Shown: positions 1 through 10,447 of the stretch, piece by piece | Layout of the letters: the number at the start of each line of letters is the position of its first letter | Numbering within the stretch: position 1 is the first letter of the stretch | DNA from: a bacterium | GTDB lineage: Bacteria; Patescibacteriota; UBA1384; JAMDBS01; DAOVQR01 | DNA: 10,447 bases | Reading direction: 5' to 3' | Assembly (NCBI GenBank): GCA_030628575.1 | Contig: DAOVQR010000014.1 | Span: 1-10,447 of the forward strand | Program-made: the position numbers and the translations under genes | Notes under the pieces: generated by a model | The model's input: the letters and a program-made list of their open reading frames with translations, nothing else | The model's database searches: none | Told to the model about the DNA's origin: nothing

Positions 1-942
1 ATATAAATCAGATTCTATCATCATCATTGCCGGTTGACATTCAGGATCACCAAAACGGACATTAAATTCAATAACTTTTGCTCCATCTTTTGTCATCATC
101 ATTCCAGCATATAATAATCCTTTAAATATATTATTATCTTCTTTCATTTTTTTTACGATTGGCGTTAACATTCTATTTGTAATATATTCAATCGTTTTTT
201 TATTGGCAATTGGTGCTGGTCCATAAGCGCCCATACCGCCAGTATTTGGACCTTTGTCTTTATCTAATAATGGTTTATGATCCTGAAGGGAAATTTTTAT
301 TGGATAAACTTTATTGCCGTCAGATATGGCAAAAATAGAAAATTCTTCGCCAAATAATCTTTCAGAAATTAAAACATCAGTTCCATATTTTTTAAAATGT
401 TCTTTGATTTGTTTTAGTGCTTGTTTTTTATTATCACAAACACTAACACCTTTTCCGCCTGTAAGTCCTCTAGCTTTAATGACAATACCATCTTTGTTAA
501 CCATTTTTTCTATTGCTTTAATTGCTTGTTTTTTAATTCTACATTTTACTGATTCAGCTTGGGGAATATTAAAAAACTTCATAGTGTCGTATGAATAAAA
601 TTTATCTGATTCAAGTTTTGTTGCTTTTTTAGTCGGACCAAAAATATTCTTATAACCATTTTTATGGAAATAATCAACAATACCGTCAACAAGTGGCGCT
701 TCAGGACCAACTATAACAAGATCAATTTTATTGTTTTTAATCCAATTGAATAATTTTTTAAAATTTTCTTTTTTAGTTCCGTCAATTTCAATATTTTCGG
801 ATTTTTGCTCTAAAGCAGTACCGGCATTGCCAGGGGAATAAAAAATTTCCTCAACCTTGTTGCTTTGAGCCAATTTCCAACCTAAAGCATGTTCCCTTCC
901 CCCCTTGCCAATTATCAGAACCTTAGCTTTTTTGGCATTCAT
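1..942 (-). other. purD: PurD (GAR synthetase) portion of the fusion, with possible internal start
   Basis: This part catalyses phosphoribosylamine + glycine + ATP to glycinamide ribonucleotide, step two of purine synthesis. Numbered from ATG 942, it has the N-domain motif IIGKGGREHAL at about 8-18, GNAGT, VGPEAPLVDG, GPTKKATKLESDKFYS, the ATP-grasp glycine loop KARGLTGGKGV, SERLFGEEFS, QDHKPLLDKDKGPNTGGMGAY, and the metal/phosphate site IEFNVRFGDPECQ. About 314 of the usual 420 or so residues are present; the C-domain lies beyond base 1. ATG 942 has AGGA six bases upstream, a good Shine-Dalgarno sequence. Internal initiation could therefore yield stand-alone PurD besides the fusion, and this may be the relic of two formerly separate, coupled genes. 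Confidence 0.93.
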
Positions 943-1515
943 TTTCCTTCCTGTCATAGTTTTGATAATCTTTGCTACTTTTTCTATTGCTTTTTGTGGT
1001 TTTCCTTCATAATTTATTATTTTGTAATTATGATATTTGTCATACTTCTTCTCTTTTTTCATCGTATCTAGGCGCCAAGAAAGATCTTTTGTTGAAGTTT
1101 CTGGTCGATTCTTTTCGATTCTTTTCATCAACTGTTCAGGATTTTCATATCTAATGGATATTGATATTGTTTTATCAGGAAACAAATTTTTATAATTTTT
1201 TACACCGATGGCGTCAGTTTCCAGGATAATATTTTTATTTTGCTGTAAAACTTTTTCAATATCTTTTTTACTTCTTCCATAATAATTTCCACAAAATTCA
1301 GTATATTCAATCATTTCATTATTATCAATCATTTTTTTAAATTGCTTGTGCGATATAAATTTTCTATTTCCTACTTCATCAGATTTTCTTTTTGATCTAC
1401 TGGTGTAACTTTTTACCACTACCAAATCAGGATACTTTTTTAGTATGCCTTTGATAATAGTATCTTTGCCTACTCCCGAGGGTCCAGAAATTATAAAAAT
1501 TTTTGCTTTAATCAT
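1..1515 (-). CDS. Guanylate kinase-PurD fusion protein (3' end beyond window)
   Basis: One reading frame runs from ATG 1515 to base 1 with no stop, giving 505 codons in the window. Residues 1-191 are guanylate kinase (GMP + ATP to GDP + ADP). They show the P-loop GPSGVGKDT at 11-19, a GMP-binding-like SYTSRSKRK stretch, NYYGRS, and LETDAIG in place of the usual IDxQG. From residue 192 the protein is phosphoribosylamine-glycine ligase (PurD). I checked every codon across the junction and found no tta, cta or tca in frame. GMK normally ends at about this length, so there is almost no linker. The start is supported by AGGAA five bases upstream, and the ATG overlaps the TGA of the methyltransferase remnant (ATGA). 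The two enzymes catalyse distant steps of purine metabolism. An internal start at 942 could also give free PurD. What I see is a fused frame; that it makes a fused protein is inference. Confidence 0.88.
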   Translation of the reverse strand, partial: MIKAKIFIISGPSGVGKDTIIKGILKKYPDLVVVKSYTSRSKRKSDEVGNRKFISHKQFKKMIDNNEMIEYTEFCGNYYGRSKKDIEKVLQQNKNIILETDAIGVKNYKNLFPDKTISISIRYENPEQLMKRIEKNRPETSTKDLSWRLDTMKKEKKYDKYHNYKIINYEGKPQKAIEKVAKIIKTMTGRKMNAKKAKVLIIGKGGREHALGWKLAQSNKVEEIFYSPGNAGTALEQKSENIEIDGTKKENFKKLFNWIKNNKIDLVIVGPEAPLVDGIVDYFHKNGYKNIFGPTKKATKLESDKFYSYDTMKFFNIPQAESVKCRIKKQAIKAIEKMVNKDGIVIKARGLTGGKGVSVCDNKKQALKQIKEHFKKYGTDVLISERLFGEEFSIFAISDGNKVYPIKISLQDHKPLLDKDKGPNTGGMGAYGPAPIANKKTIEYITNRMLTPIVKKMKEDNNIFKGLLYAGMMMTKDGAKVIEFNVRFGDPECQPAMMMIESDLY

Positions 1516-1658
1516 TTATTTCCTATCAAATATATATTTAATCCATTTTCTTTATCACTCTTCCCTGTTTTATCAGCATAAAAAGTTTTGATATCTTTAA
1601 AACCGGTTTGTTTCGCCAATTTTTTTAATTCTTCGGCTGTGAAACAATGAATAAATCT
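1512..1658 (-). pseudogene. 3'-terminal remnant of the SAM methyltransferase gene
   Basis: The minus strand encodes the last 48 residues of the methyltransferase at 3615-4559 (RFIHCFTAEELKKLAKQTGF onward) and ends LIGNK-TGA. It differs from the intact gene by one substitution (TGK for TGE) and by its final residues. An in-frame TAA lies just upstream and there is no start codon, so it is not a gene. Its tail provides AGGAA and the ATGA overlap for the GMK-PurD start. This suggests the methyltransferase once lay directly upstream of GMK-PurD, before the kinase and phosphatase genes came between them. Confidence 0.85.
1521..1658 (-). repeat. Direct repeat, copy A (138 bases)
   Basis: Matches 3630-3767 at an offset of 2109 bases with two differences (1527 C for T, 1562 T for C) and no gaps. 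Identity stops abruptly at 1659/3768 on the right and near 1520/3629 on the left. Both copies face the same way and bracket the phosphatase and kinase genes. Confidence 0.95.
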
Positions 1659-1681
1659 TTTTTGATTATTGATTTACTATT

Positions 1682-2773
1682 TCATCTATGAATTTTTTGA
1701 ATAAGATTATAAAGAGGAGTTTTATCATCAAGAATAATTTGTGTTGCATGTTGACGAACAGTTCTTTTAGCATTTTCCTTTTTAAACCAAACAGTCCATG
1801 AGCTAGAGATTCCATCAATTCTACCAAGCATCAATCCTCCAATATAATGTTTAATTCTGTTTTCTAAATCCTTTCTGTTTTCCGGGATATTAATTTTATT
1901 TAAATAGACATTTATCATTTCCAAAACAGATTTAATAACTAAAGGGCGAATATTTTTATGATAATCTGCTCTCAAAAGATACGATCCTAATAAAATTCCT
2001 ATATCAAAAGCGGGATCACCAAGATGAGCTTCTTCTAAATCAAAAGTACCAATTTTTGCACCATTAACCAAAATATTTCTAGGATGATATTCACCATGAA
2101 CTAATACTTTGTTAATTTTCATGCTTTCCTGAACAAATTTTGTCTGAAGTATTTTGACTCGGTTTCGGATTTTAGGATCTAAATTTTTATAAACTTCTAA
2201 ACATTGATATTTAAGTTTTATAAATTTTACTTTTTTATCTTCTTTCACAGAACGTAAAGGATTGGTTTTCCCGTAAGTATTACTAACTAATTTAGCTGCA
2301 AATTTAGCAAGATTTTTTGAAGCTTCTAAGTTTATTTTTTTATCGATAATGTTTTCTAATAATTTACCATCAGGACAAACCTCAGAGAGAATTAAAACCC
2401 TGTTAGAAGTATCATGATAATAAATATGTGGAGTAATGTCGTGGTTGACTTTTTTTTCAAGGATTTTCAAAGCTCTTGATTCCGGAATTTGACGATTGTT
2501 ATTAAAGATCCATTTTCTGACTTCATTTAAAGCTTTTTTTTCAAAATCATCTTGATTATCTTGATCAGGAAAAAACTTTTCATACTGCACAGATTTTATC
2601 ACTCGTTTTAAGTAAAAGGGAGTTTTATCTACTACTAAACGGAAAACTCGTGAGACTAAACCACCTTTCATCTTTTTAAATTCCTGTAATTGACCCTGAG
2701 TAATAAAATCAAGATGAGAAAAAATATTTTTTTCTAAATAAGATAGAATATTTTGTTTATTTAATGGTTTCAT
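1682..2773 (-). CDS. APH/choline-kinase-family small-molecule kinase
   Basis: A 363-residue protein of the aminoglycoside-phosphotransferase fold. An N-lobe nucleotide loop (GGLVSRVFRL, about 37-46) is followed by the ATP-binding lysine region FYLKRV (K56) and a possible helix-C glutamate E84. The catalytic Brenner motif is HGEYHPRN (226-233), with E replacing the usual D of HGD. The metal site is FDLEEAHLGDPAFD (244-257). The family transfers the ATP gamma-phosphate to hydroxyls of small molecules (aminoglycosides, choline, methylthioribose, sugars); the substrate here is unknown. The C-terminal GGLMLGRIDGISS region vaguely recalls methylthioribose kinase. AAGGA lies four bases before the ATG, and the gene starts nine bases after the phosphatase gene, so the two are probably co-translated. 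The kinase-phosphatase pair is bracketed by the 138-base direct repeats. Confidence 0.85.
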   Translation of the reverse strand: MKPLNKQNILSYLEKNIFSHLDFITQGQLQEFKKMKGGLVSRVFRLVVDKTPFYLKRVIKSVQYEKFFPDQDNQDDFEKKALNEVRKWIFNNNRQIPESRALKILEKKVNHDITPHIYYHDTSNRVLILSEVCPDGKLLENIIDKKINLEASKNLAKFAAKLVSNTYGKTNPLRSVKEDKKVKFIKLKYQCLEVYKNLDPKIRNRVKILQTKFVQESMKINKVLVHGEYHPRNILVNGAKIGTFDLEEAHLGDPAFDIGILLGSYLLRADYHKNIRPLVIKSVLEMINVYLNKINIPENRKDLENRIKHYIGGLMLGRIDGISSSWTVWFKKENAKRTVRQHATQIILDDKTPLYNLIQKIHR

Positions 2774-2782
2774 TTATCCTTT

Positions 2783-3622
2783 TTAATAAGTACCTTTTTC
2801 TATTTTTGAATTTTTTTCCAAATGGGGAGTTTCGGCTATAGAAGTAATGTTCCATTGATTCTTTTTTCGGCTTATTTCGCTAATAGAAGTGTAAGCAATT
2901 TTGCCTACTAGATCAATAATTTTAGGTAAATCTTTTTGAGTTATAGTCAAATCCTTTTTTCCTTTATTTTTTTCTTCAATAAACCAAAGGGTTAAGCCAA
3001 GTATAAGACGATGAGTAAAAACAATATTAAAGGGATATTTAGAACTGTTAAGAAATTGTAAACCTTGTTTTACCTTTGAGAGTTGACTATTGAGTAAATC
3101 AATGATTTTATCTGGATCTTTTTGTAACCATAATTTAATAGGGTGGATATTTTTTTGTTTTGCTTCTTTGAGTAGATCAAGAGCTTCTTGTTTTTTACCA
3201 ATCCAAGGTATTTCAGAAAAACATTCTAATTCTATAGGAATATTATTAGCTGGAATTGGCACTTTTTGGTTTTCTAAGTGAGCTAGGTTTAAATTTTTGG
3301 AAATAATATTAGCTTCGCTTTTAGAGCGACGAATAGGACTTGTGTAGATCATAAATTTTTTGTTTAAATTTTCTTCTTTTAAGATTTCCGGTAATTTTTT
3401 TTGAAGATATTCACTTAATAACCTGGTCATCTTTAAACCTTTAATATCCGCAAGTGTATATGTTTCAATATCTTTACCTTCTAATTCTGCTTTTTTTAAA
3501 TGCATATCCAGCCATTTTACAGATGGATGTCTTATGAATAAAATGGTTTTTTCAGGTTTTGATTCTTTTTCTGGGGTATATTCTTTTTCAATGTCAGGTC
3601 TAAATTTTTTGATTTCACCCAT
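2783..3622 (-). CDS. Histidine phosphatase superfamily protein
   Basis: A 279-residue protein matching the phosphoglycerate-mutase/histidine-phosphatase fold. Its catalytic features are FIRHP (R31, H32; usually RHG, here RHP), TSPIRRS (95-100, equivalent to SPLxRAxxTA), SEIPW (E137, the probable acid) and FTHR (H204, second histidine). An N-terminal charged extension of about 25 residues precedes the core. There is no signal peptide, so it is probably cytoplasmic. The start at 3622 is backed by AGGAG seven bases upstream, inside the end of the methyltransferase gene, and the two genes overlap by eight bases (ATGGGTGA). A phosphatase beside a small-molecule kinase suggests handling of a phosphorylated intermediate; the substrate is unknown. 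The RHP variant is unusual but keeps the two essential residues. Confidence 0.82.
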   Translation of the reverse strand: MGEIKKFRPDIEKEYTPEKESKPEKTILFIRHPSVKWLDMHLKKAELEGKDIETYTLADIKGLKMTRLLSEYLQKKLPEILKEENLNKKFMIYTSPIRRSKSEANIISKNLNLAHLENQKVPIPANNIPIELECFSEIPWIGKKQEALDLLKEAKQKNIHPIKLWLQKDPDKIIDLLNSQLSKVKQGLQFLNSSKYPFNIVFTHRLILGLTLWFIEEKNKGKKDLTITQKDLPKIIDLVGKIAYTSISEISRKKNQWNITSIAETPHLEKNSKIEKGTY

Positions 3623-4559
3623 TTTTTTCTCCTATTAAATATATATTTAATCCATTTTCTTTATCACTCTCCCCTGTTTTATCAGCATAAAAAGTTTTGA
3701 TATCTTTAAAACCGGTTTGTTTCGCCAATTTTTTTAATTCTTCGGCTGTGAAACAATGAATAAATCTGAATTTGCCTGATTGTTTCCATGGTACTATTGT
3801 ATCACATTTTTCTAAATCGCTGATTAACGCAGATAGTGACGCAGATTGACGTGGATATTTTCTTAGTTTCGGATTTCGGTTTGCCCCGTACCGTGCTTGC
3901 TTTGGTGCGGGGATTTCGTGCTTCGGATTTGCAGGTATAAAATATTTTTTATACCTAGGTTGCCAGCGGTTCCAGACCGAGATTAGGATTTTACCCTTAG
4001 GTTTTAGAGCTTGGTAAATATTTCTTAGGAATTTTAATTGTAATTCTTTACTTGGAATATGATGTAGAACTGCAATGCTAATAATGTAATCAAAACGATT
4101 TTTGAAATTGACCGTTAAACTATCCCCTACTTTAAATTCCGCTGTCATCTTGAGCGAAGTCGAAGGATCTCGAGATTCTTCACGGAGCCTGTCCTGAGAT
4201 TCTTCACTGTGTTCAGAATGACAATCGAAGGATTCAGAATGACTAATTGGATATTTTTTCTTATTTAACTCGATGAATTTTTTACTAATGTCTATTCCAA
4301 CATACTTGATTTTTAATTGTTTTATCTGTTTTGATCCGCTATTGAATCTGGTTGATAATCCGTGTTTTGCGATACAATCGCAGAGACGTCCATTGCCACA
4401 ACCTAAATCCAAAATAGATGACTTTGGTTTAATTTTGTCAATAAAGTCCAAAATAGGTTTTTCCCAAATAGCGGATCGGGTTTTATCCCAATCCAAAGCT
4501 TGTGATTCATACAGATCATAATTAAGTTTTAAAAGTTTTTTTACAGTTTGCGGTTTCAT
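3615..4559 (-). CDS. Class I SAM-dependent methyltransferase, Trm9/ALKBH8-like, with two repeat-derived insertions
   Basis: A 314-residue Rossmann methyltransferase. The SAM site is ILDLGCGNGRL (49-59), motif II is YVGIDIS (86-92), and the later motifs are ISIAVLHHIP (160-169) and LKPKGKILISVW. The stretches ISIAVLHHI, IVPW and FRFIHCFTAEEL resemble the Trm9/ALKBH8 tRNA wobble-uridine methyltransferase family. That tRNA is the substrate is inference only. Two segments look foreign: residues 106-139 (HSEHSEES...STSLKMT) and 209-247 (NPKHEIPAPK...SALIS). Both are read through in frame, so the protein is longer than the 230-250 residues I would expect. The first gene of the operon, it starts just after the intrinsic terminator and has no clear Shine-Dalgarno sequence. 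The end overlaps the phosphatase start. Its last 46 codons recur at 1521-1658. Confidence 0.82.
   Translation of the reverse strand: MKPQTVKKLLKLNYDLYESQALDWDKTRSAIWEKPILDFIDKIKPKSSILDLGCGNGRLCDCIAKHGLSTRFNSGSKQIKQLKIKYVGIDISKKFIELNKKKYPISHSESFDCHSEHSEESQDRLREESRDPSTSLKMTAEFKVGDSLTVNFKNRFDYIISIAVLHHIPSKELQLKFLRNIYQALKPKGKILISVWNRWQPRYKKYFIPANPKHEIPAPKQARYGANRNPKLRKYPRQSASLSALISDLEKCDTIVPWKQSGKFRFIHCFTAEELKKLAKQTGFKDIKTFYADKTGESDKENGLNIYLIGEKNG
3630..3767 (-). repeat. Direct repeat, copy B (138 bases, inside the methyltransferase 3' end)
   Basis: Partner of 1521-1658, 136/138 identical. This copy is the functional 3' end of the methyltransferase and carries the AGGAG ribosome site of the phosphatase gene. 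Confidence 0.95.
3819..3935 (-). repeat. Repeat-derived in-frame insertion 2 in the methyltransferase
   Basis: Encodes residues 209-247 (NPKHEIPAPKQARYG..., RQSASLSALIS), which interrupt the methyltransferase between KKYFIP and DLEKCDTIVPW. Base composition is much richer in GC than the surroundings. Stretches reading CCGAAGCACGAAATCC and ATCTGCGTTAATCAGCG are of a kind I recognise as dispersed repetitive DNA in environmental bacterial genomes. Family membership is from memory, not from a search, and the edges are approximate. Confidence 0.6.
4143..4244 (-). repeat. Palindromic dispersed repeat inserted in frame in the methyltransferase (insertion 1)
   Basis: Encodes residues 106-139. The minus strand contains TGTCATTCTGAACACAGTGA, then AGAATCT, then CTTCGACTTCGCTCAAGATG ACA. 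The two ends are imperfect inverted repeats of each other (TGTCATTCTGA and TCAAGATGACA). Peptides such as HSEHSEES and DPSTSLKMT are the known signature of this widespread palindromic repeat when it is translated. It adds about 34 residues between the motif II strand and AEFKVGDSL without breaking the frame, much like Rickettsia palindromic elements. Confidence 0.75.
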
Positions 4560-4587
4560 AATGTTATCATATCATTTTTAAGAAAAT

Positions 4588-4615
4588 AAAAAAATCTTGA
4601 TAATAAATCAAGATT
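4588..4615 (-). terminator. Intrinsic terminator after the DNA methyltransferase gene
   Basis: On the minus strand AATCTTGA, loop TTTATTA, TCAAGATT form a perfect 8-base-pair stem followed by a T tract (seven T's, the first two inside the stem). It lies about 90 bases after the DNA methyltransferase stop and about 30 bases before the SAM methyltransferase start, so it separates two transcription units. Confidence 0.78.
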
Positions 4616-4633
4616 ATATTTTAACTTGTTATT

Positions 4634-4655
4634 CCCTGTGGTCTCTGCCACAGGG
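4634..4655. repeat. GC-rich perfect hairpin
   Basis: CCCTGTGG, six-base loop TCTCTG, CCACAGGG. The stem is perfect over 8 base pairs in an otherwise AT-rich spacer. It sits between the DNA methyltransferase stop and the terminator and has no T tract of its own. It could protect the transcript 3' end or be a REP-like repeat. Confidence 0.6.
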
Positions 4656-4705
4656 TAATTCATTTTCATTAGATTAAACCGTGTCTTTAGAGAAAATTTG
4701 ATTTT

Positions 4706-5533
4706 TTAGTTTGGCGAAGGACAGAGGTGCTGAGGGTGAATGCCCCGAGCCGAATTACTCTGTTTTTGTTGTTGAAACAGGGTTGGACGGCTATTATATT
4801 TTTTAATCCTATCCATTATTATTTTATGATAATCTTTATTTATTTCAAATCCTACATATTGTTTGTCATTTGCCAAGCAAGCAATAGCAGTTGTCCCCGT
4901 TCCCATAAACGGATCAAAGACAATGCCTTTTTTTGGACAACTTGCCCTTACCATTCGTTCAATTATTTCCAATGGTTTTTGTGTTGGATGATTTTCTCTT
5001 TCTGGGTTCTGTGCATGAATTCTAGATACACTCCATAAATCTTTTGGATTATATCCAATTTCAAGCCATTTCGCACCAATAAAAATAGAACGAGTCCTTG
5101 CCTTTTTAGTTTTTTCATCATAAGGTATTCTAATACTATCTAAATCAAAATAATAATCATTATTTTTAACAAAAAAGCCTATGTTATCATGAACGGAAGA
5201 AAATTTTCTTGTAGATCCGCCCATGCTAGGTACTCGTCTATCCCAGATAATCTCATTAACCATTCGTAATTTCTTTTTTAAATAAACAAAAATTTCTGGT
5301 GAATATTGCCAACTCAAAAAAATATAAAAACTGCCGGTTTTTTTTAGTTTAGGTAAAACCGCATCAATCCATTGATATGTCCAGTTTAAATAATCTTTTG
5401 ATGATTTTTGATCGGAATCATTGCCATAATCTTTACCTAGACAATAGGGTGGATCGGTCAATATTAAATCAATAGAATCATCTTCTATTTTATTTATTCC
5501 TAATAAAATGTCTTCATTAAAAATTTTATTCAT
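4706..5533 (-). CDS. Solitary DNA methyltransferase (N6-adenine or N4-cytosine, beta class)
   Basis: A 275-residue DNA amino-methyltransferase. Catalytic motif IV, LTDPPY (25-30), is near the N-terminus, and the SAM-binding motif I, FDPFMGTGTT (206-215), is near the C-terminus, with HPTQKPLEIIERMV (182-195) before it. This circular order (IV, target recognition, I) defines the beta class, as in YhdJ and many type II enzymes. DPPY fits N6-adenine slightly better than N4-cytosine but does not decide it. No restriction endonuclease gene is visible nearby, so it may act alone, for example in regulation or phage protection. The last 20 or so residues (SARGIHPQHLCPSPN) are coded by a GC-rich patch unlike the rest and look like a repeat-derived extension. 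A good terminator follows. Confidence 0.9.
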   Translation of the reverse strand: MNKIFNEDILLGINKIEDDSIDLILTDPPYCLGKDYGNDSDQKSSKDYLNWTYQWIDAVLPKLKKTGSFYIFLSWQYSPEIFVYLKKKLRMVNEIIWDRRVPSMGGSTRKFSSVHDNIGFFVKNNDYYFDLDSIRIPYDEKTKKARTRSIFIGAKWLEIGYNPKDLWSVSRIHAQNPERENHPTQKPLEIIERMVRASCPKKGIVFDPFMGTGTTAIACLANDKQYVGFEINKDYHKIIMDRIKKYNSRPTLFQQQKQSNSARGIHPQHLCPSPN

Positions 5534-5565
5534 AGCTATTTTAAAATTATGCTTTTTGATTTTTC

Positions 5566-5627
5566 TTTCAACATTTTCAGAGCGTAGCGGGGGCGTAGTG
5601 GAGTGAAACGGAACGGAGAAGTTGAAA
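5566..5627. repeat. GC-rich spacer element bounded by TTTCAAC/GTTGAAA
   Basis: A 62-base stretch between the HIT gene and the DNA methyltransferase gene begins TTTCAAC and ends with its complement GTTGAAA. Its interior (GAGCGTAGCGGGGGCGTAGTG) is strikingly GC-rich for this region. It looks like an inserted short repeat; nothing suggests coding. Confidence 0.45.
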
Positions 5628-5637
5628 CTTTTCCGTA

Positions 5638-6063
5638 CTAGAAATCAGACATGAATTCCTTCATTTTTTTAACATATTTTTTAACTTCTTGGAAAATATC
5701 ATTACTTAACATATTTTCTTTTGCATAATTCATAATTGGTCTTACGGATTGGATTTTTCTTCCGAATTTTTCCATCCAATCATAGCGAGGAAAAATCCAT
5801 AAATGAAATCCATGTTTAGTATCTTCATTCTGAAAAAAATAGACTTCATTAATTTTTAGAACGTTTCTCATCCCTTTACGAGCTTTGCGAATTAAATTGA
5901 TAAATTCAATTGCTTCTTCACCAGTAAATTGATCTACAGATTTTAATTTTCGTAAAGGAGCAATTATGAAAAATCCAGGAATAGGAACTTCCCAATCTTG
6001 ATGAATATTAAAGTATTTAGCCGTGATGATGTTTTTGTTTGGAAATAGTGTTTTTTCTTTCAT
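5638..6063 (-). CDS. HIT-like (histidine triad) family protein
   Basis: A 141-residue protein with the size and layout of HIT nucleotide hydrolases/transferases. A beta strand GFFIIAPLRKLKSVDQF (about 30-46) is followed by a helix and then YFFQNEDTKHGFHLWIFPR (75-93). In the standard HxHxHxx-PR alignment, H87 takes the place of the nucleophilic histidine, while the flanking histidines are replaced by G85 and W89, with H84 close by. The triad is thus altered, somewhat like GalT-type HPHxQ proteins. Family members split nucleoside phosphates or dinucleotides; the substrate here is open. AGGAA lies about ten bases before the ATG. The gene seems to stand alone between the toxin fossil and the DNA methyltransferase. 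Confidence 0.68.
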   Translation of the reverse strand: MKEKTLFPNKNIITAKYFNIHQDWEVPIPGFFIIAPLRKLKSVDQFTGEEAIEFINLIRKARKGMRNVLKINEVYFFQNEDTKHGFHLWIFPRYDWMEKFGRKIQSVRPIMNYAKENMLSNDIFQEVKKYVKKMKEFMSDF

Positions 6064-6117
6064 AATATAACGTTCCTGTATATCTGAAGTTTATTTGGAT
6101 TTTTTACCCAATTTGGA

Positions 6118-6230
6118 CTAATACTTTCTATAAATATCATGGTGTCCTACATTGTTTTGAAGTCCTTTTGGATAACTATCGGTAATTTATGATACGCTCG
6201 CTTGAAGCGCGGCGAGAGATTGATAAACAT
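6118..6230 (-). pseudogene. Internally deleted RelE/ParE-type toxin gene
   Basis: ATG 6230 begins one base after the antitoxin stop (TAA-T-ATG) and encodes MFINLSPRFKRAYHKLPIVI followed by QKDFKTM-TAG. This is a typical RelE-family N-terminus (SxxFKRAYxKLPxxIQKDF). One base out of frame, starting at 6150, the sequence reads VGHHDIYRKY-TAG (stop at 6120-6118), the typical RelE C-terminus (xGxHDxIYR). About 50 residues of the middle, which hold most of the fold and the catalytic region, are missing. The two parts now sit in different frames, so no toxin can be made. This reading rests on family knowledge of both ends and on the position right behind an antitoxin. Confidence 0.75.
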
Positions 6231-6231
6231 A

Positions 6232-6492
6232 TTATACCTCAAGTGCAGCAATTAAGCTCTTGGCAGTTTTGTGAGTAGTATAATTACCCAAAGCATAATC
6301 GAGCCGTGCTTCATTAATAATTTCGTCAAGCGTTTTGGCTCTATTAACTCGTTTAATATCATCTATGGCGATTTCTACTACACTCTTTTTTTCACGCGGA
6401 TATTTAGAAAGATACCGAAAAGCTGACAATGGTATATTAATCATTGCTTCATGAGTTCTTTTTGAATTTTTGGATAATGTTTTTAGTTTCAT
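6232..6492 (-). CDS. RelB-like antitoxin, orphaned
   Basis: An 86-residue protein. I start it at ATG 6492 (MKLKTLSKNSKR); a TTG nine bases further upstream is possible but has no better ribosome site. The N-terminal half would be the DNA-binding, dimerising part (AMINIPLSAFRYLSKY). The C-terminal segment LDEIINEARLDYALGNYTTHKTAKSLIAAL resembles the toxin-wrapping tail of RelB-type antitoxins. Gene order antitoxin-toxin with a one-base gap fits a type II system. Because the toxin behind it is deleted, the antitoxin is orphaned; it might still repress its own promoter or neutralise related toxins elsewhere. There is no Shine-Dalgarno sequence. Confidence 0.7.
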   Translation of the reverse strand: MKLKTLSKNSKRTHEAMINIPLSAFRYLSKYPREKKSVVEIAIDDIKRVNRAKTLDEIINEARLDYALGNYTTHKTAKSLIAALEV

Positions 6493-6511
6493 ATTAAACA
6501 AAGTTTATCAC

Positions 6512-6517
6512 ATTATA
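6512..6517 (-). promoter_or_regulatory. Possible -10 box of the antitoxin gene
   Basis: A perfect TATAAT on the minus strand 19 bases before ATG 6492. It would give a very short leader, in line with the missing Shine-Dalgarno sequence. No good -35 box is visible at 16-18 bases, so this is only suggestive. Confidence 0.35.
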
Positions 6518-6629
6518 CAAACCCAAGCAAATTTGGACGAAGCCCGAAAGTGCAATGTCTCCTTGAGTCAAGAAAAGTTGTATATCCAGAACTAAGTATA
6601 TTCAAATAACATATAGAAAGTCGACAAAA

Positions 6630-7040
6630 TTACAATGGTTTAGTTCCTAAATCTTCTACAAATCTTAATAAATAACCATCCGGATCTTGAATGAGAAATT
6701 CTTTATTTCCAAAAAGTTGATTGTCTTGTCTATACCAATTTTCTTTAGGTTTAACAAAAATAGGATAATTATTTTTCTTAAGATTGTCTAAAATTGGTTT
6801 AATCTTATCAACTTCTATTTGAAAATTAATTCCTCTACCATAAGGATGCTCTAATTTGCCTGTTACCCAATGATTATTGGTTTCTTCAATCATTAGTTGA
6901 CTTTCTTGAAATGAAATCATGGCAAATTTAGATTCTTTTCTTTGATATTCAATTTTGAAACCTAAAATGTTAGTATAAAATTTCAAGCTTTTGTCAAAAT
7001 TAGACACACTTAATTCAGGAATTAATTTGTTGAATTTCAT
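6630..7040 (-). CDS. VOC superfamily protein (glyoxalase/bleomycin-resistance-like)
   Basis: A 136-residue protein with two beta-alpha-beta-beta-beta modules. The first is IPELSVSNFDKSLKFYTNILGFKIEYQR (about 7-34) followed by FAMISFQESQLMIEE. The second contains EHPYGRGINFQIEV, then WYRQDNQLFGNKEFLIQDPDGYLLRFVE near the C-terminus. FYTNILGF, GRGINFQIEV and DPDGYLLRF are typical of the bleomycin-binding branch of the vicinal-oxygen-chelate superfamily, which sequesters drugs as a dimer and lacks the metal ligands of true glyoxalases. Resistance is only one possibility; many VOC proteins have other small-molecule roles. No Shine-Dalgarno sequence is seen. A 20-base palindrome lies about 75-90 bases upstream and could be its operator. 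Confidence 0.85.
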   Translation of the reverse strand: MKFNKLIPELSVSNFDKSLKFYTNILGFKIEYQRKESKFAMISFQESQLMIEETNNHWVTGKLEHPYGRGINFQIEVDKIKPILDNLKKNNYPIFVKPKENWYRQDNQLFGNKEFLIQDPDGYLLRFVEDLGTKPL

Positions 7041-7093
7041 AATATTAATAGATGATTGTTAAGGATATATAAATTTGCTGACTTCTTCAAAAA

Positions 7094-7215
7094 ATAAACT
7101 TTTCTTGATTTTGTATAACCCTTGTTATACACTCCGACGACTGAAAGGAGAAGAGCGCAGCGTGGCTTGAGTTCAAAAAATATTTTTCGTTCTCATTCAT
7201 TTGATAAACTTTTCT
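7094..7215. repeat. Spacer element flanked by 12-base direct repeats
   Basis: ATAAACTTTTCT occurs at 7094-7105 and again at 7204-7215. Between them lie 98 bases that include a GC-rich patch (7131-7170) and the 20-base palindrome. This resembles a small insertion with a target duplication, or one unit of a dispersed repeat. A 37-codon minus-strand frame (7200-7087, MNENEKYFLNSSHAALFSFQ...) crosses it but has no ribosome site, and I do not call it a gene. Confidence 0.4.
7112..7131. promoter_or_regulatory. Perfect 20-base palindrome, candidate operator
   Basis: TGTATAAC, CCTT, GTTATACA: two perfect 8-base arms with a 4-base centre. It lies upstream of the VOC gene and downstream of the dikinase. 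The arm spacing suits a dimeric repressor. There is no T tract on either strand, so it is not a terminator. Confidence 0.45.
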
Positions 7216-7253
7216 CATTAATTATAAATTTCATTTTTCAAAACACATTATTA

Positions 7254-8432
7254 TTATTTCTTTTTTAGAATTTTAACCAATCCTTGATTAGCGTTAACTT
7301 CTACTAGATCGCCATCTTTTAAAATTGATGTTGCACTTCCTGTTCCAATGATACAAGGTTTTTGCATTTCTCTTGAAACTATTGCAGCGTGGCAAAGAAT
7401 TCCTCCCTCATCGGTTATAAATGCTGATGCCTTTTCCATAGCAGGAACAAAATCAGGGGTGGTCATTGAAGAAACTAAAATATCGCCTTCACTTATTTTT
7501 TTTAACCCAGTATTATCTAAAACAATTTTGACAAACCCTTTGACAATACCCTTATTTGCAATAACACCTTTGATTTCTTTGTTTTCTGTAATTTTTACTT
7601 TTTTCTTGATAACTTTTTGATTAACATTTTTTAATAATTTTTTATGAACTTTGATTGCTTTTTCACCAAAAGCAAAATACAGCTTTCCATCAACACCTCT
7701 TATTATATTTGTTTTTGCTCTCTCTGTAATTGTTTTTTTATCAGGAAAATTAAAGCTAATAATTTCGTTTGGTAAACATTCAATAACTGATCTTAAATTA
7801 AGTGCGTTTCTTTTCCCGATTTCTTTAAATAAGGGAAACATATTTGCAAAAGCTCCCGAAATAATATCAGTCCTATATGTTCTCAAATATACATATAAGC
7901 GCGTTATTACGATGAATTTCCTAAAATTTTTGTCAGCATTTAATTTTTTCAGTGTGATTTCCACCTTATCATCTGCTTGCTTCAGTATTGATAAAATATG
8001 ATATAATCTTTTTTTAGGAGATTGTTTGGATAGATATTTTATTCTTTCAACGACTTCTTTTTTGTTCCATAATTCACCGACACCATATTTAACTCCAAGT
8101 GTGTCAAATTCAAGGAGATAATCATCTATTTTATTTTTTATCCCTCGATTTTCGTTATAGAGTATTGCTAATTTTAAGATAGCCACTTGTTCAAAATATC
8201 CAGAATTTTGCTTGGAAGGGGTTGTTAAAATTTTAAAATAGTTATCCTTAAATTTAGGGTCTTTAACTTTTTGAGAGAGCCAATTTTTTATTGATTCCTC
8301 AAAATAGCATTGCAAGGAGATTGGAAATAGCAAATATGAACATAAATTAACTAAATCTTCTATTCCTTTTACAACTAAAGATTTTAATTCCTCATCTGTT
8401 TTTCTGCTTAAGTTTGTTTTTTTAATAACCAA
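7254..8432 (-). CDS. Dikinase C-terminal part: helical region and phosphohistidine swivel domain
   Basis: The 392 codons continue the gene at 8408-9727 in the -1 frame. Residues 1-250 or so are helical (LSRKTDEELKSLVVKGIEDL and onward). The C-terminus is the PEP-utiliser mobile domain with ITDEGGILCHAAIVSRE (339-355), where H348 is the histidine that carries phosphate, followed by PCIIGT and LKDGDLVEVNANQG. No PEP/pyruvate TIM barrel follows, so the order ATP-grasp, helical, swivel resembles rifampin phosphotransferase and not PEP synthase. The only early start is TTG 8432, with GGAAAG some eight bases upstream. It could be translated by reinitiation, by frameshifting in A7, or not at all if the gene is broken. 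The acceptor substrate is unknown. Confidence 0.82.
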   Translation of the reverse strand: MVIKKTNLSRKTDEELKSLVVKGIEDLVNLCSYLLFPISLQCYFEESIKNWLSQKVKDPKFKDNYFKILTTPSKQNSGYFEQVAILKLAILYNENRGIKNKIDDYLLEFDTLGVKYGVGELWNKKEVVERIKYLSKQSPKKRLYHILSILKQADDKVEITLKKLNADKNFRKFIVITRLYVYLRTYRTDIISGAFANMFPLFKEIGKRNALNLRSVIECLPNEIISFNFPDKKTITERAKTNIIRGVDGKLYFAFGEKAIKVHKKLLKNVNQKVIKKKVKITENKEIKGVIANKGIVKGFVKIVLDNTGLKKISEGDILVSSMTTPDFVPAMEKASAFITDEGGILCHAAIVSREMQKPCIIGTGSATSILKDGDLVEVNANQGLVKILKKK

Positions 8433-9727
8433 GCTTTCTTTCCAAAGTTTAGCCCCGTCTTTTTGGCATTTATCTGCAATTGTCTTGAGGTAATTTGATT
8501 TTTTTCTATTTGTAATGAAATTTCTTTTCTTTCAATTGCAATCGCTTTTTTATCAACAAAAATCCCTCTCTGGTTATTGTAAAAGGGCTTGTGGGGTGTC
8601 GGGAAACCAAATATTTTTTTGTATCTTTCATTACCGCAATAACCCCAAGGGAAGCAACATCTTAACAATAAAACAGATTTTCTTGCCACCACAAAAAAAT
8701 AATTACTTTCCTCATCCATTTCAAAAACGGACAAGTCTTTGGGTAATATTATTCTTTCTTGAATACTAAATTGTTTAATTTTTTTAGCACTAATAGTAGT
8801 AATCGGTCTACTTTGCACAATATAAAACTTTTCATTTTCTTTTGCCCATTCTATATCACAAGGAAACCCATAATGATTTTCAATTTTTACAATCAGTTTA
8901 GACAATTCTATAATCTCTTTTTCATTTAAAACTTGTTTTTTGCCTTTAACTCCTAATTCTTTCCATTCATTTCCACCTTTAGCTTTTTTGTATAGTGTCT
9001 TTGTCTGTTCATTAACGTTAATATCTAAAATTGAAAATTCCTGCTTATTTACAACATAACTATCTGGAGTTATTGAGCCGGAAACAATTGCTTCACCTAA
9101 ACCAATGCCCGCTTCAATAATTATTTGGTTTTCATCTTGTGTAACTGGATGAACCGAAAAAGCAATTCCTGACTTTTCAGAATCAACCATTTTTTGAACA
9201 ACAACAGCAACAGAAATCTTATCTTTGCTTAATTTGTTTTCAAATCTGTAAAAAATGGCTCTTGGAGTAAATAAAGAAGCCCAGCATTTTTTAACATTTT
9301 CTAAAAGCGTTTCTTTTGTTGTATTAAGAAAGCTATCTAATTGTCCAGCCCAAGCGGCAGAAGCTGAATCTTCGGAGGTTGCAGAAGAACGGACTGCAAC
9401 ATATTTACAATCTAATTTTTTATAAAACTTCAAAATTTCTGTTTTAATATCTTCTGGTATTTCTTTGGAAAGAATCAATGCCTGAATTTTTTCAGAAGCA
9501 TTTTCAACTGTATGAATTTCTTTGATATCAACTGTATCTAAAACAGTATCAATTTCAACATTCAAATTTTTTTCTTCAATAAATCTATCAAAAACATTAG
9601 AAAGAATTACAAAACCTTCCGGGACAGGAATACTCGCCTGTGTCATTTCGCCAAGCGAAGATCCTTTGCCACCAGCAATCGCTGTGTTTGATTTTGAAAT
9701 TTTTCGGAAAGTTTTAATTAATGTCAT
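8408..9727 (-). CDS. Dikinase N-terminal part: ATP-grasp (PEP synthase/PPDK-type) domain
   Basis: A 439-residue frame. Residues 1-315 are the PPDK N-terminal ATP-grasp: AIAGGKGSSLGEM (16-28), VAVRSSATSEDS with WAGQLDSFLN (110-135), VVVQKMVDSEKSGIAFSVHP (176-194), IIIEAGIGLGEAIVSGSITPDSYVV (202-226) and IEWA...FYIVQSRPIT (292-310). All key motifs are present. It uses ATP to phosphorylate the histidine of the swivel domain, which lies in the next frame. Residues 320-435 enter the helical middle region, then the frame ends eight bases after an A7 run (LLKKQT-TAA). Moving to the -1 frame there gives LLKKTNLSRKTDEEL, a natural continuation. The family protein is normally about 820-870 residues in one chain. 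Confidence 0.88.
   Translation of the reverse strand: MTLIKTFRKISKSNTAIAGGKGSSLGEMTQASIPVPEGFVILSNVFDRFIEEKNLNVEIDTVLDTVDIKEIHTVENASEKIQALILSKEIPEDIKTEILKFYKKLDCKYVAVRSSATSEDSASAAWAGQLDSFLNTTKETLLENVKKCWASLFTPRAIFYRFENKLSKDKISVAVVVQKMVDSEKSGIAFSVHPVTQDENQIIIEAGIGLGEAIVSGSITPDSYVVNKQEFSILDINVNEQTKTLYKKAKGGNEWKELGVKGKKQVLNEKEIIELSKLIVKIENHYGFPCDIEWAKENEKFYIVQSRPITTISAKKIKQFSIQERIILPKDLSVFEMDEESNYFFVVARKSVLLLRCCFPWGYCGNERYKKIFGFPTPHKPFYNNQRGIFVDKKAIAIERKEISLQIEKNQITSRQLQINAKKTGLNFGKKAWLLKKQT
8417..8423 (-). other. A7 run where the dikinase frame switches (-1)
   Basis: On the minus strand the zero frame reads TTA AAA AAA CAA ACT TAA. A -1 slip on A-AAA-AAA continues as ACA AAC TTA AGC, which enters the downstream frame. 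The run is both a classic slippery heptamer and a common site of indels, whether real or from sequencing. Confidence 0.7.
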
Positions 9728-9834
9728 ATTCTCAGATTAGATTGCATTCCTTTATAAATAAATCGTTTTCTGGAGCGGAACAGAAGAAAACACCATATAC
9801 CCCCCTCTTAAAATAAATAAAATAAAATTTGTTC

Positions 9835-9840
9835 ATTATA
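9835..9840 (-). promoter_or_regulatory. Possible -10 box of the dikinase gene
   Basis: TATAAT on the minus strand about 108 bases before the dikinase start, with no recognisable -35 at 16-18 bases. In so AT-rich a region this can occur by chance. Confidence 0.22.
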
Positions 9841-9967
9841 GAAAATAGTTAGGCGTTAGCTGTGAAAAGAAAAGCATATTTCCGATAATATTCGCGTATG
9901 TCTGAAGTTTTCACCCCGATTTTAATGGAATAAATTTTAATTATCAGACGCACGTTTTTAATTAATC

Positions 9968-10052
9968 CCACCCAAACCCTCATCAAACTAAGAGATGAAA
10001 ATTTGGGCGGAAGAAAATTGACACTCCTTTGAAATTAAAAAGGTCAATTTTC
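9968..10052. repeat. Two adjacent imperfect hairpins
   Basis: First: CCACCCAAA (9968-9976) pairs with TTTGGGCGG (10002-10010) with one mismatch, and inside it TCATC (9980-9984) pairs with GATGA (9994-9998). Second: GAAAATTGA (10013-10021) pairs with TCAATTTTC (10044-10052), and inside it CCTTT pairs with AAAGG. Nested pairing in both suggests a folded RNA or a structured repeat. Confidence 0.55.
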
Positions 10053-10120
10053 TGTAGCCAGATATACGTTGTTATGTGATGTAGACAGAAATTTCTTTTT
10101 CTTTAATCTATTTTGGCAAT

Positions 10121-10447
10121 TTATTCGCTTTCAAATGTTGACCACCTCTCAATTTTTGAAGTGTCACATCTTAACGAACCTCCATTTTTGCTAATCATCT
10201 CTGAAAGCGTCTCGCCGTCTTCTTGATTAATTTTCATTATTGCCGAAGTAATTTCCGGCACTTCTTTGTCGCTTATCGCTACCACAAATTCTATCTCTTT
10301 GTCCTTTAAAAAATCTAACACTTTTCCACTAAAAGCTTTGTTATCACTTCTTCCAGCAAAAGTGCCAAAAATTGATAATTCTCCAAGCGGCACTTTGATA
10401 ATTGCCATATCTTCATCATTCATTTCAATTTCATCGTAGCCATAAAT
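10121..10447 (-). CDS. Unrecognised protein, C-terminal part (gene enters from the right edge)
   Basis: The frame is open from the window edge to the TAA at 10121. An ATG at 10423 would give 100 residues, but the frame continues upstream without a stop (IYGYDEIE before that Met), so the real start probably lies outside. I recognise no family. The protein is acidic and soluble-looking, with alternating strands and helices: MAIIKVPLGELSIFGTFAG, a basic helix around KVLDFLKDKEIEFVVAISD, and ITSAIMKINQEDGETLSEMI. It has no membrane segment and one cysteine in SLRCDTSK near the C-terminus. It is separated from the dikinase by the structured leader. Confidence 0.6.
   Translation of the reverse strand: MYGYDEIEMNDEDMAIIKVPLGELSIFGTFAGRSDNKAFSGKVLDFLKDKEIEFVVAISDKEVPEITSAIMKINQEDGETLSEMISKNGGSLRCDTSKIERWSTFESE

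Follow-up and report, generated by a model that had tools for sequence, protein, structure and literature searches.

An apparent insertion scar: a phosphatase-kinase gene pair between two copies of a methyltransferase gene 3' end in an uncultured member of the Patescibacteriota

The stretch of DNA analyzed here, hereafter called the window, comprises 10,447 bp and is the entire contig DAOVQR010000014.1 (positions 1 to 10,447 of the forward strand; contig C59 in this work) of the GenBank assembly GCA_030628575.1, a Patescibacteriota genome (UBA1384; JAMDBS01; DAOVQR01) with a total length of 823,206 bases in 145 contigs and a completeness of 68%. The locus of interest lies on the minus strand and includes, in the 5' to 3' direction of that strand, a gene coding for an S-adenosylmethionine (SAM)-dependent methyltransferase (MT, 4559-3615; Methyltransf_23, E 1.2e-21), a gene for a 279-aa divergent histidine phosphatase-like protein (3622-2783), a gene for a 363-aa small-molecule kinase of the APH family (2773-1682; PF01636, E 3.5e-11), an orphan MT 3' end (1658-1512) and a GMK-PurD fusion gene, which starts at 1515 and runs off the contig end at position 1. 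The 3' end of the MT gene is present on both sides of the phosphatase-kinase pair, and the locus, with two sibling loci elsewhere in this genome, has the look of a real and well-preserved scar left by a known type of insertion.

The two copies, located at 1521-1658 (left copy) and 3630-3767 (right copy), both on the minus strand, constitute a direct repeat with 136 of 138 positions identical, the mismatches falling at 1527 and 1562 and dividing the repeat into exact runs of 6, 34 and 96 bases. In a gapped alignment the similarity extends to 1496-1658 and 3602-3767, with 94% identity over 166 columns. Ten letter-shuffled versions of the window reached at best 60-66 of the 138 positions, and the match, first noticed in a reading of the letters made without database searches (the sequence-only reading), was borne out both by the alignment and by this control. 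The matches in the genome of the window were confined to these two places, and a third copy was not detected. A segment of homology to the MT gene is present, as a long direct repeat of the putative target, at both ends of the cassette.

The right copy corresponds to codons 265-310 of the 314 codons of the MT gene, the frame of which is intact through the copy, leaving the target gene whole by way of what would be a rebuilt 3' end. Six MT homologs of 230-238 aa from relatives of the same class align through the C-terminus, and since the right copy represents the family's own C-terminus in this alignment, it belongs to the intact gene and the left copy is the orphan. In the MT frame both copies are translated as RFIHCFTAEELKKLAKQTGFKDIKTFYADKTG(E/K)SDKENGLNIYLIG, i.e. 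46 residues with a single difference (E/K). Their endings are distinct, EKNG-stop in the right copy and NK-stop in the left one, and each is fitted to its own downstream start: the right MT stop (3615-3617) falls within the phosphatase start ATGGGTGA, so the two genes overlap, and the left MT stop (1512-1514) overlaps the GMK start as ATGA, with an AGGA(G) motif located at the repeat end a few bases upstream of both the phosphatase and the GMK starts. Reading of the frames thus confirmed the earlier claim that the left copy retains the MT C-terminus, its stop, and the ribosome site and ATGA overlap for GMK-PurD. The MT frame of the left copy contains no ATG or GTG and two internal TTG triplets, at codons 14 and 44 of 49. 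The left copy begins abruptly 23 bases past the kinase stop, and the resemblance to the MT sequence does not extend past the repeat into the 23-base spacer forming this new junction (1659-1681). Searches of the window for tRNA genes and Rfam families gave no matches.

The MT protein itself (314 aa) harbors three in-frame extra segments (about 4149-4247, 3882-3962 and 4326-4373) that are absent from the six homologs. Used as queries against the genome, the first two of these regions produced 21 and 17 additional matches with E<=10 (best values 2.4e-8 and 5.4e-6, most matches being very weak), and the segments appear to be short interspersed repeats inserted in frame into a conserved gene. The methyltransferase part of the protein is also matched by the PADLOC model mad2 (E 1.8e-21), which probably reflects nothing but the shared domain.

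Similar arrangements were looked for in 102 contigs of the same genome (the window, contig C113 and 100 others), 84 of which were readable and together contained 512,547 bases, the remaining 18 consisting entirely of N. The scan for direct repeats of at least 40 bases with at least 85% identity and a spacing of 300-6000 bases returned 14 pairs, and a pair was considered a parallel when one copy fell at the 3' end of an upstream gene that was intact and the orphan copy lay behind one or two genes on the same strand. This was the case for three pairs, namely the window, L162 and L181, with repeats of 138, 65 and about 56 bp, respectively. L162 (contig C55, 2986-3050 and 4481-4545) consists of a UPF0102 gene, genes coding for an IS200 TnpA and a Bro-N protein, and an orphan UPF0102 3' end, with the Bro-N protein matching the PADLOC model PDC-S13 (E 4e-101). 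L181 (contig C75, 6894-6948 and 8171-8226) consists of an SHMT gene, a gene for a 386-aa protein with no Pfam match and an orphan SHMT 3' end, followed by an AAA_14/DUF4143 gene and a folD-type gene; both copies end in a proper stop with different last codons (PGV-stop vs PGT-stop). A protein-level scan of 486 open reading frames (ORFs) in the same bases returned these three loci as the only orphan C-terminal duplicates within 8 kb (94-100% identity), along with two weak N-terminal orphan cases. In the class relative G008 (400 kb, 393 ORFs) the same scan returned a single repeat having an orphan duplicate of a C-terminus (three rows, 49-81%), together with a gene that has two N-terminal orphan copies in tandem, so with three cases against one an enrichment is not established and the idea that orphan 3' ends are peculiar to the window's genome was dropped. 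There is no core common to the three loci beyond the shuffle level, the longest shared strings being 8, 8 and 9 long and matched by 54, 73 and 13 of 100 shuffles.

The remaining 11 repeat pairs were not counted as parallels. L180 is a marginal fourth case, in which the copy includes only 18 bases from the end of a 250-aa ORF, a Bro-N gene lies between the copies and the repeat carries a REP-like string; it was excluded from the main count. L138 and L188 represent gene-internal repeats or repeat-bearing neighbors, L109, L133, L142, L165, L173 and two pairs in L183 are intergenic or non-coding, and the repeat of L182 surrounds an IS200-type gene. At the last of these loci (2703-3539), palindrome-bearing repeats lie on both sides of the IS200-type transposase gene, which we take to be RAYT-like. 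The repeats of L180 (5936-5982 and 6994-7040), L165 (4770-4860 and 5835-5927) and L173 (1-79 and 1021-1099) contain GGGGACGGTTCTC, its near-match or its reverse complement, presumably a REP-like string, and enclose a Bro-N gene, a DUF4325 gene pair and a gene for a 193-aa protein, respectively. L183 (contig C77, 3090-3268 and 5523-5701) includes a 179-base repeat with 95.5% identity in a stretch almost devoid of ORFs.

The differences between the copies were also assigned to codon positions, in a small and pooled test devised post hoc, after the data had been seen. Third positions account for one of the two differences in the window, three of three in L162 and two of two in L181 (within a 15-codon core), which gives 6/7 for the pooled loci (p=0.007) and 4/5 without L181 (p=0.045). 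If the target had been freshly duplicated, the orphan copy would drift regardless of codons, and the lean mildly suggests that both copies were functional gene ends before they met, one of them being that of a donor allele or a 3' end carried by an element.

The explanation that we put forward tentatively, giving it somewhat less than an even chance, is that the pair was placed behind the MT gene by one homologous crossover between the MT 3' end and incoming DNA, with the other join being illegitimate. The incoming DNA would have borne the phosphatase-kinase pair attached to its own variant of the MT 3' end, and a crossover within the approximately 140 bp of the MT 3' end would have generated the intact MT-phosphatase junction. 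The other end, running from 23 bases past the kinase stop to MT codon 265, would have been joined without homology, either during formation of a circle or in a one-sided integration of the homology-facilitated illegitimate type. Downstream, the resident MT 3' end would then stay as the orphan, allowing the ribosome site and the ATGA coupling of GMK-PurD to survive, and the rebuilt MT end would provide the phosphatase gene with an equivalent ribosome site. The repeat, both junctions, the intact reading frames and the parallel loci are seen directly in the sequence, whereas the sequence of steps, their route, a donor and a working translational coupling are reconstructed. The anatomy of the repeat and its junctions, the distinct terminal codons, the two parallel loci and the pooled third-position lean support this explanation. 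The genome also contains a ComEC match (E 5.5e-52), consistent with a capacity for DNA uptake, and natural competence has been reported in a cultured Saccharibacterium (PMC10633639).

Insertions of this type are described in an Escherichia coli system based on the lacZ end, where single-crossover or homology-facilitated illegitimate recombination (HFIR) left gene-end duplications of 109-950 bp in the sequenced recombinants (PMC3240628), and comparable insertions in the natural transformation of Acinetobacter, Pseudomonas stutzeri and pneumococcus are cited in PMC2884548. The window resembles them in having one homologous gene-end segment, inserted DNA that would be foreign, and a partly duplicated gene end. 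Unlike the E. coli recombinants, however, it is a natural locus of an uncultured bacterium with a small genome, in which both flanking genes keep their frames and starts.

Several observations weigh against such a recombination event. The codon lean depends on what is counted: it becomes 7/11 (p=0.039) with the last two L181 codons added, 6/8 (p=0.020) with L180, the only copy difference of which is at a first codon position, and 7/12 (p=0.066) with both, and the window alone gives one in two. The composition of the pair is native, with a codon typicality at the 86.9th percentile of 291 genes, which does not support a foreign composition. The MT and GMK matches are on different contigs in all nine class genomes matching both, these assemblies being fragmented and the MT matches partly weak; the MT gene was not seen adjoining the phosphatase gene in any other genome searched, and neither a donor allele nor an empty allele was seen. 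The genomes available for the empty-site comparison were 54 others of the class, none of them closer than that rank. A contig scan by exact peptide patterns, which reaches close relatives only, gave no matches for the phosphatase and, for GMK, one distant Pseudomonadales match with 30% identity and no close relative. The earlier proposal that the pair was inserted behind the MT gene in a way that left the GMK-PurD start intact is supported in part: it fits the features and is the best reading of them, though either the pair or GMK-PurD may be the newcomer.

Rather unlikely is an insertion with long target duplication, in which the pair would have been captured at a break or by a transposition-like step behind the MT gene with duplication of about 140 bp, both copies deriving from one resident sequence. 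The original description of this type of insertion is reportedly that of Nobusato et al. in 2000. It is already in print (PMC1643837, PMC3031569, PMC3154945) and is known from restriction-modification genes of Helicobacter pylori (the same reports and PMC4978471), and the three loci share with it one or two genes enclosed by long direct target repeats of variable length (138, 65 and about 56 bp). The cargo of the window differs in not being a restriction-modification system, which is usual there although perhaps not defining. The copies, moreover, would start identical with the orphan drifting freely, whereas they lean to diverged alleles in the pooled test (6/7, or 7/12 in the widest count) and those of L181 both keep a proper SHMT end with differing last codons and stops. 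The same final anatomy, including the abrupt kinase-left copy junction, would result if a larger integration by single crossover had duplicated the whole MT gene and a deletion with its end just past the kinase gene had afterwards cut the second copy to its last 50 or so codons. We regard this as improbable, as it requires two events, the 23-base spacer has no MT-like sequence, and the short form comprising the 3' end alone recurs at L162 and L181.

A site-specific element rebuilding the 3' end of its target, with an integrase acting in trans or lost, would also leave coding-constrained differences between the copies and has a precedent in the e14 prophage, after the insertion of which into icd a 163-bp icd' segment stays as a duplicate (PMC6379469). 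The likeness lies in the rebuilt target 3' end and in the retention of the old end as a duplicate beyond the inserted DNA. In contrast to e14, the window cassette consists of two genes with no phage genes among them, profile searches found no recombinase family match between the copies, the single Phage_integrase match in the genome (incomplete and partly masked) is on contig C101, and no core is shared with the parallel loci, which makes such an element very unlikely. Of the two routes offered by the sequence-only reading, homologous recombination is mildly favored by the parallel loci and the codon lean, and the element rebuilding a 3' end is disfavored for want of a cassette integrase and a shared core. 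An assembly artefact or a strain chimera across the repeat would be in keeping with a metagenome assembly fragmented into 145 contigs at 68% completeness, and the 96-base exact run is the longest exact repeat sampled with neither copy at a contig end. All seven exact repeats of at least 98 bases touch a contig end, and 14 of the 36 with 50-96 bases are internal on both sides, so that 96 bases looks to be just inside the range resolved by the assembler; given also that the copies are distinguished by two mismatches and by their ends, an artefact is unlikely, with a decidedly low probability.

As for the cargo, the best NCBIfam model for the kinase is S-methyl-5-thioribose kinase with a score far under its cut-off, and its PDB sequence matches are weak. 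For the phosphatase-like protein, Pfam gave no significant match (His_Phos_1 is sub-threshold, E 0.17), and the NCBIfam model dPGM_arch was reached with E 0.0015 and 18 bits against a cut-off of 225. The top Foldseek matches of its structural model, a poor one with a pLDDT of 53.5, are histidine phosphatases (best E 2.7e-3, probability 1.00, none with E<=0.001). The name phosphatase for the product of 2783-3622 is tentative and draws on sequence motifs together with this sub-threshold His_Phos_1 match and the weak fold matches. The PDB sequence matches of this product (best E 1.5e-6) are nearly all pentatricopeptide-repeat proteins, natural or designed, and were judged to be chance helix similarity. 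No phosphatase match was found in plasmids or, by a search reaching close relatives only, in viral contigs; PADLOC had no match for either the phosphatase or the kinase, and Pfam likewise shows no restriction-modification cargo. The only homolog of the phosphatase-like protein among the 54 other class genomes, with 32% identity, is in G039, which again provided the one additional match among 379 genomes drawn from the whole phylum, and there it adjoins a PEP-utiliser-domain gene. A relative of the kinase (26% identity) on contig C113 of the window's own genome lies between a PEP-utiliser-domain gene and a stretch similar to the PPDK_N gene of the window, which itself holds PEP-utiliser-domain and PPDK_N-type genes at 7254-9727. 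Genes with this domain are thus found near kinase or phosphatase relatives in three places (L104 on contig C113, 2686-6068; the window, 7254-9727; L035, 4254-6317), which hints at a functional association, and the pair may belong to a loose local gene set. The domains of GMK-PurD share one frame (Guanylate_kin, E 1.7e-28; GARS_N, 1.1e-34; GARS_A, 5.2e-58). No PurD match was present within the flanks (up to 1.5 kb) of any of 29 GMK loci in other genomes, several of which have GMK in unusually long open frames.

Recombination in the MT 3' end as proposed above implies, taken alone, no new mobile system. It is very doubtful that the lineage has a recurrent and still active mechanism by which small cassettes lacking an integrase are added behind operon genes, each cassette bringing a functional 3' end of its target, preserving the upstream gene and the downstream start of translation or transcription, and able to leave by recombination between the copies. 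If the recombination reading is true, a streamlined uncultured bacterium would be able to gain genes inside a compact, translation-coupled operon while the operon stays unbroken, and an orphan gene 3' end behind one or two genes, together with a codon-position bias between the copies, would become a searchable signature of gene gain in genomes that have no close relatives.

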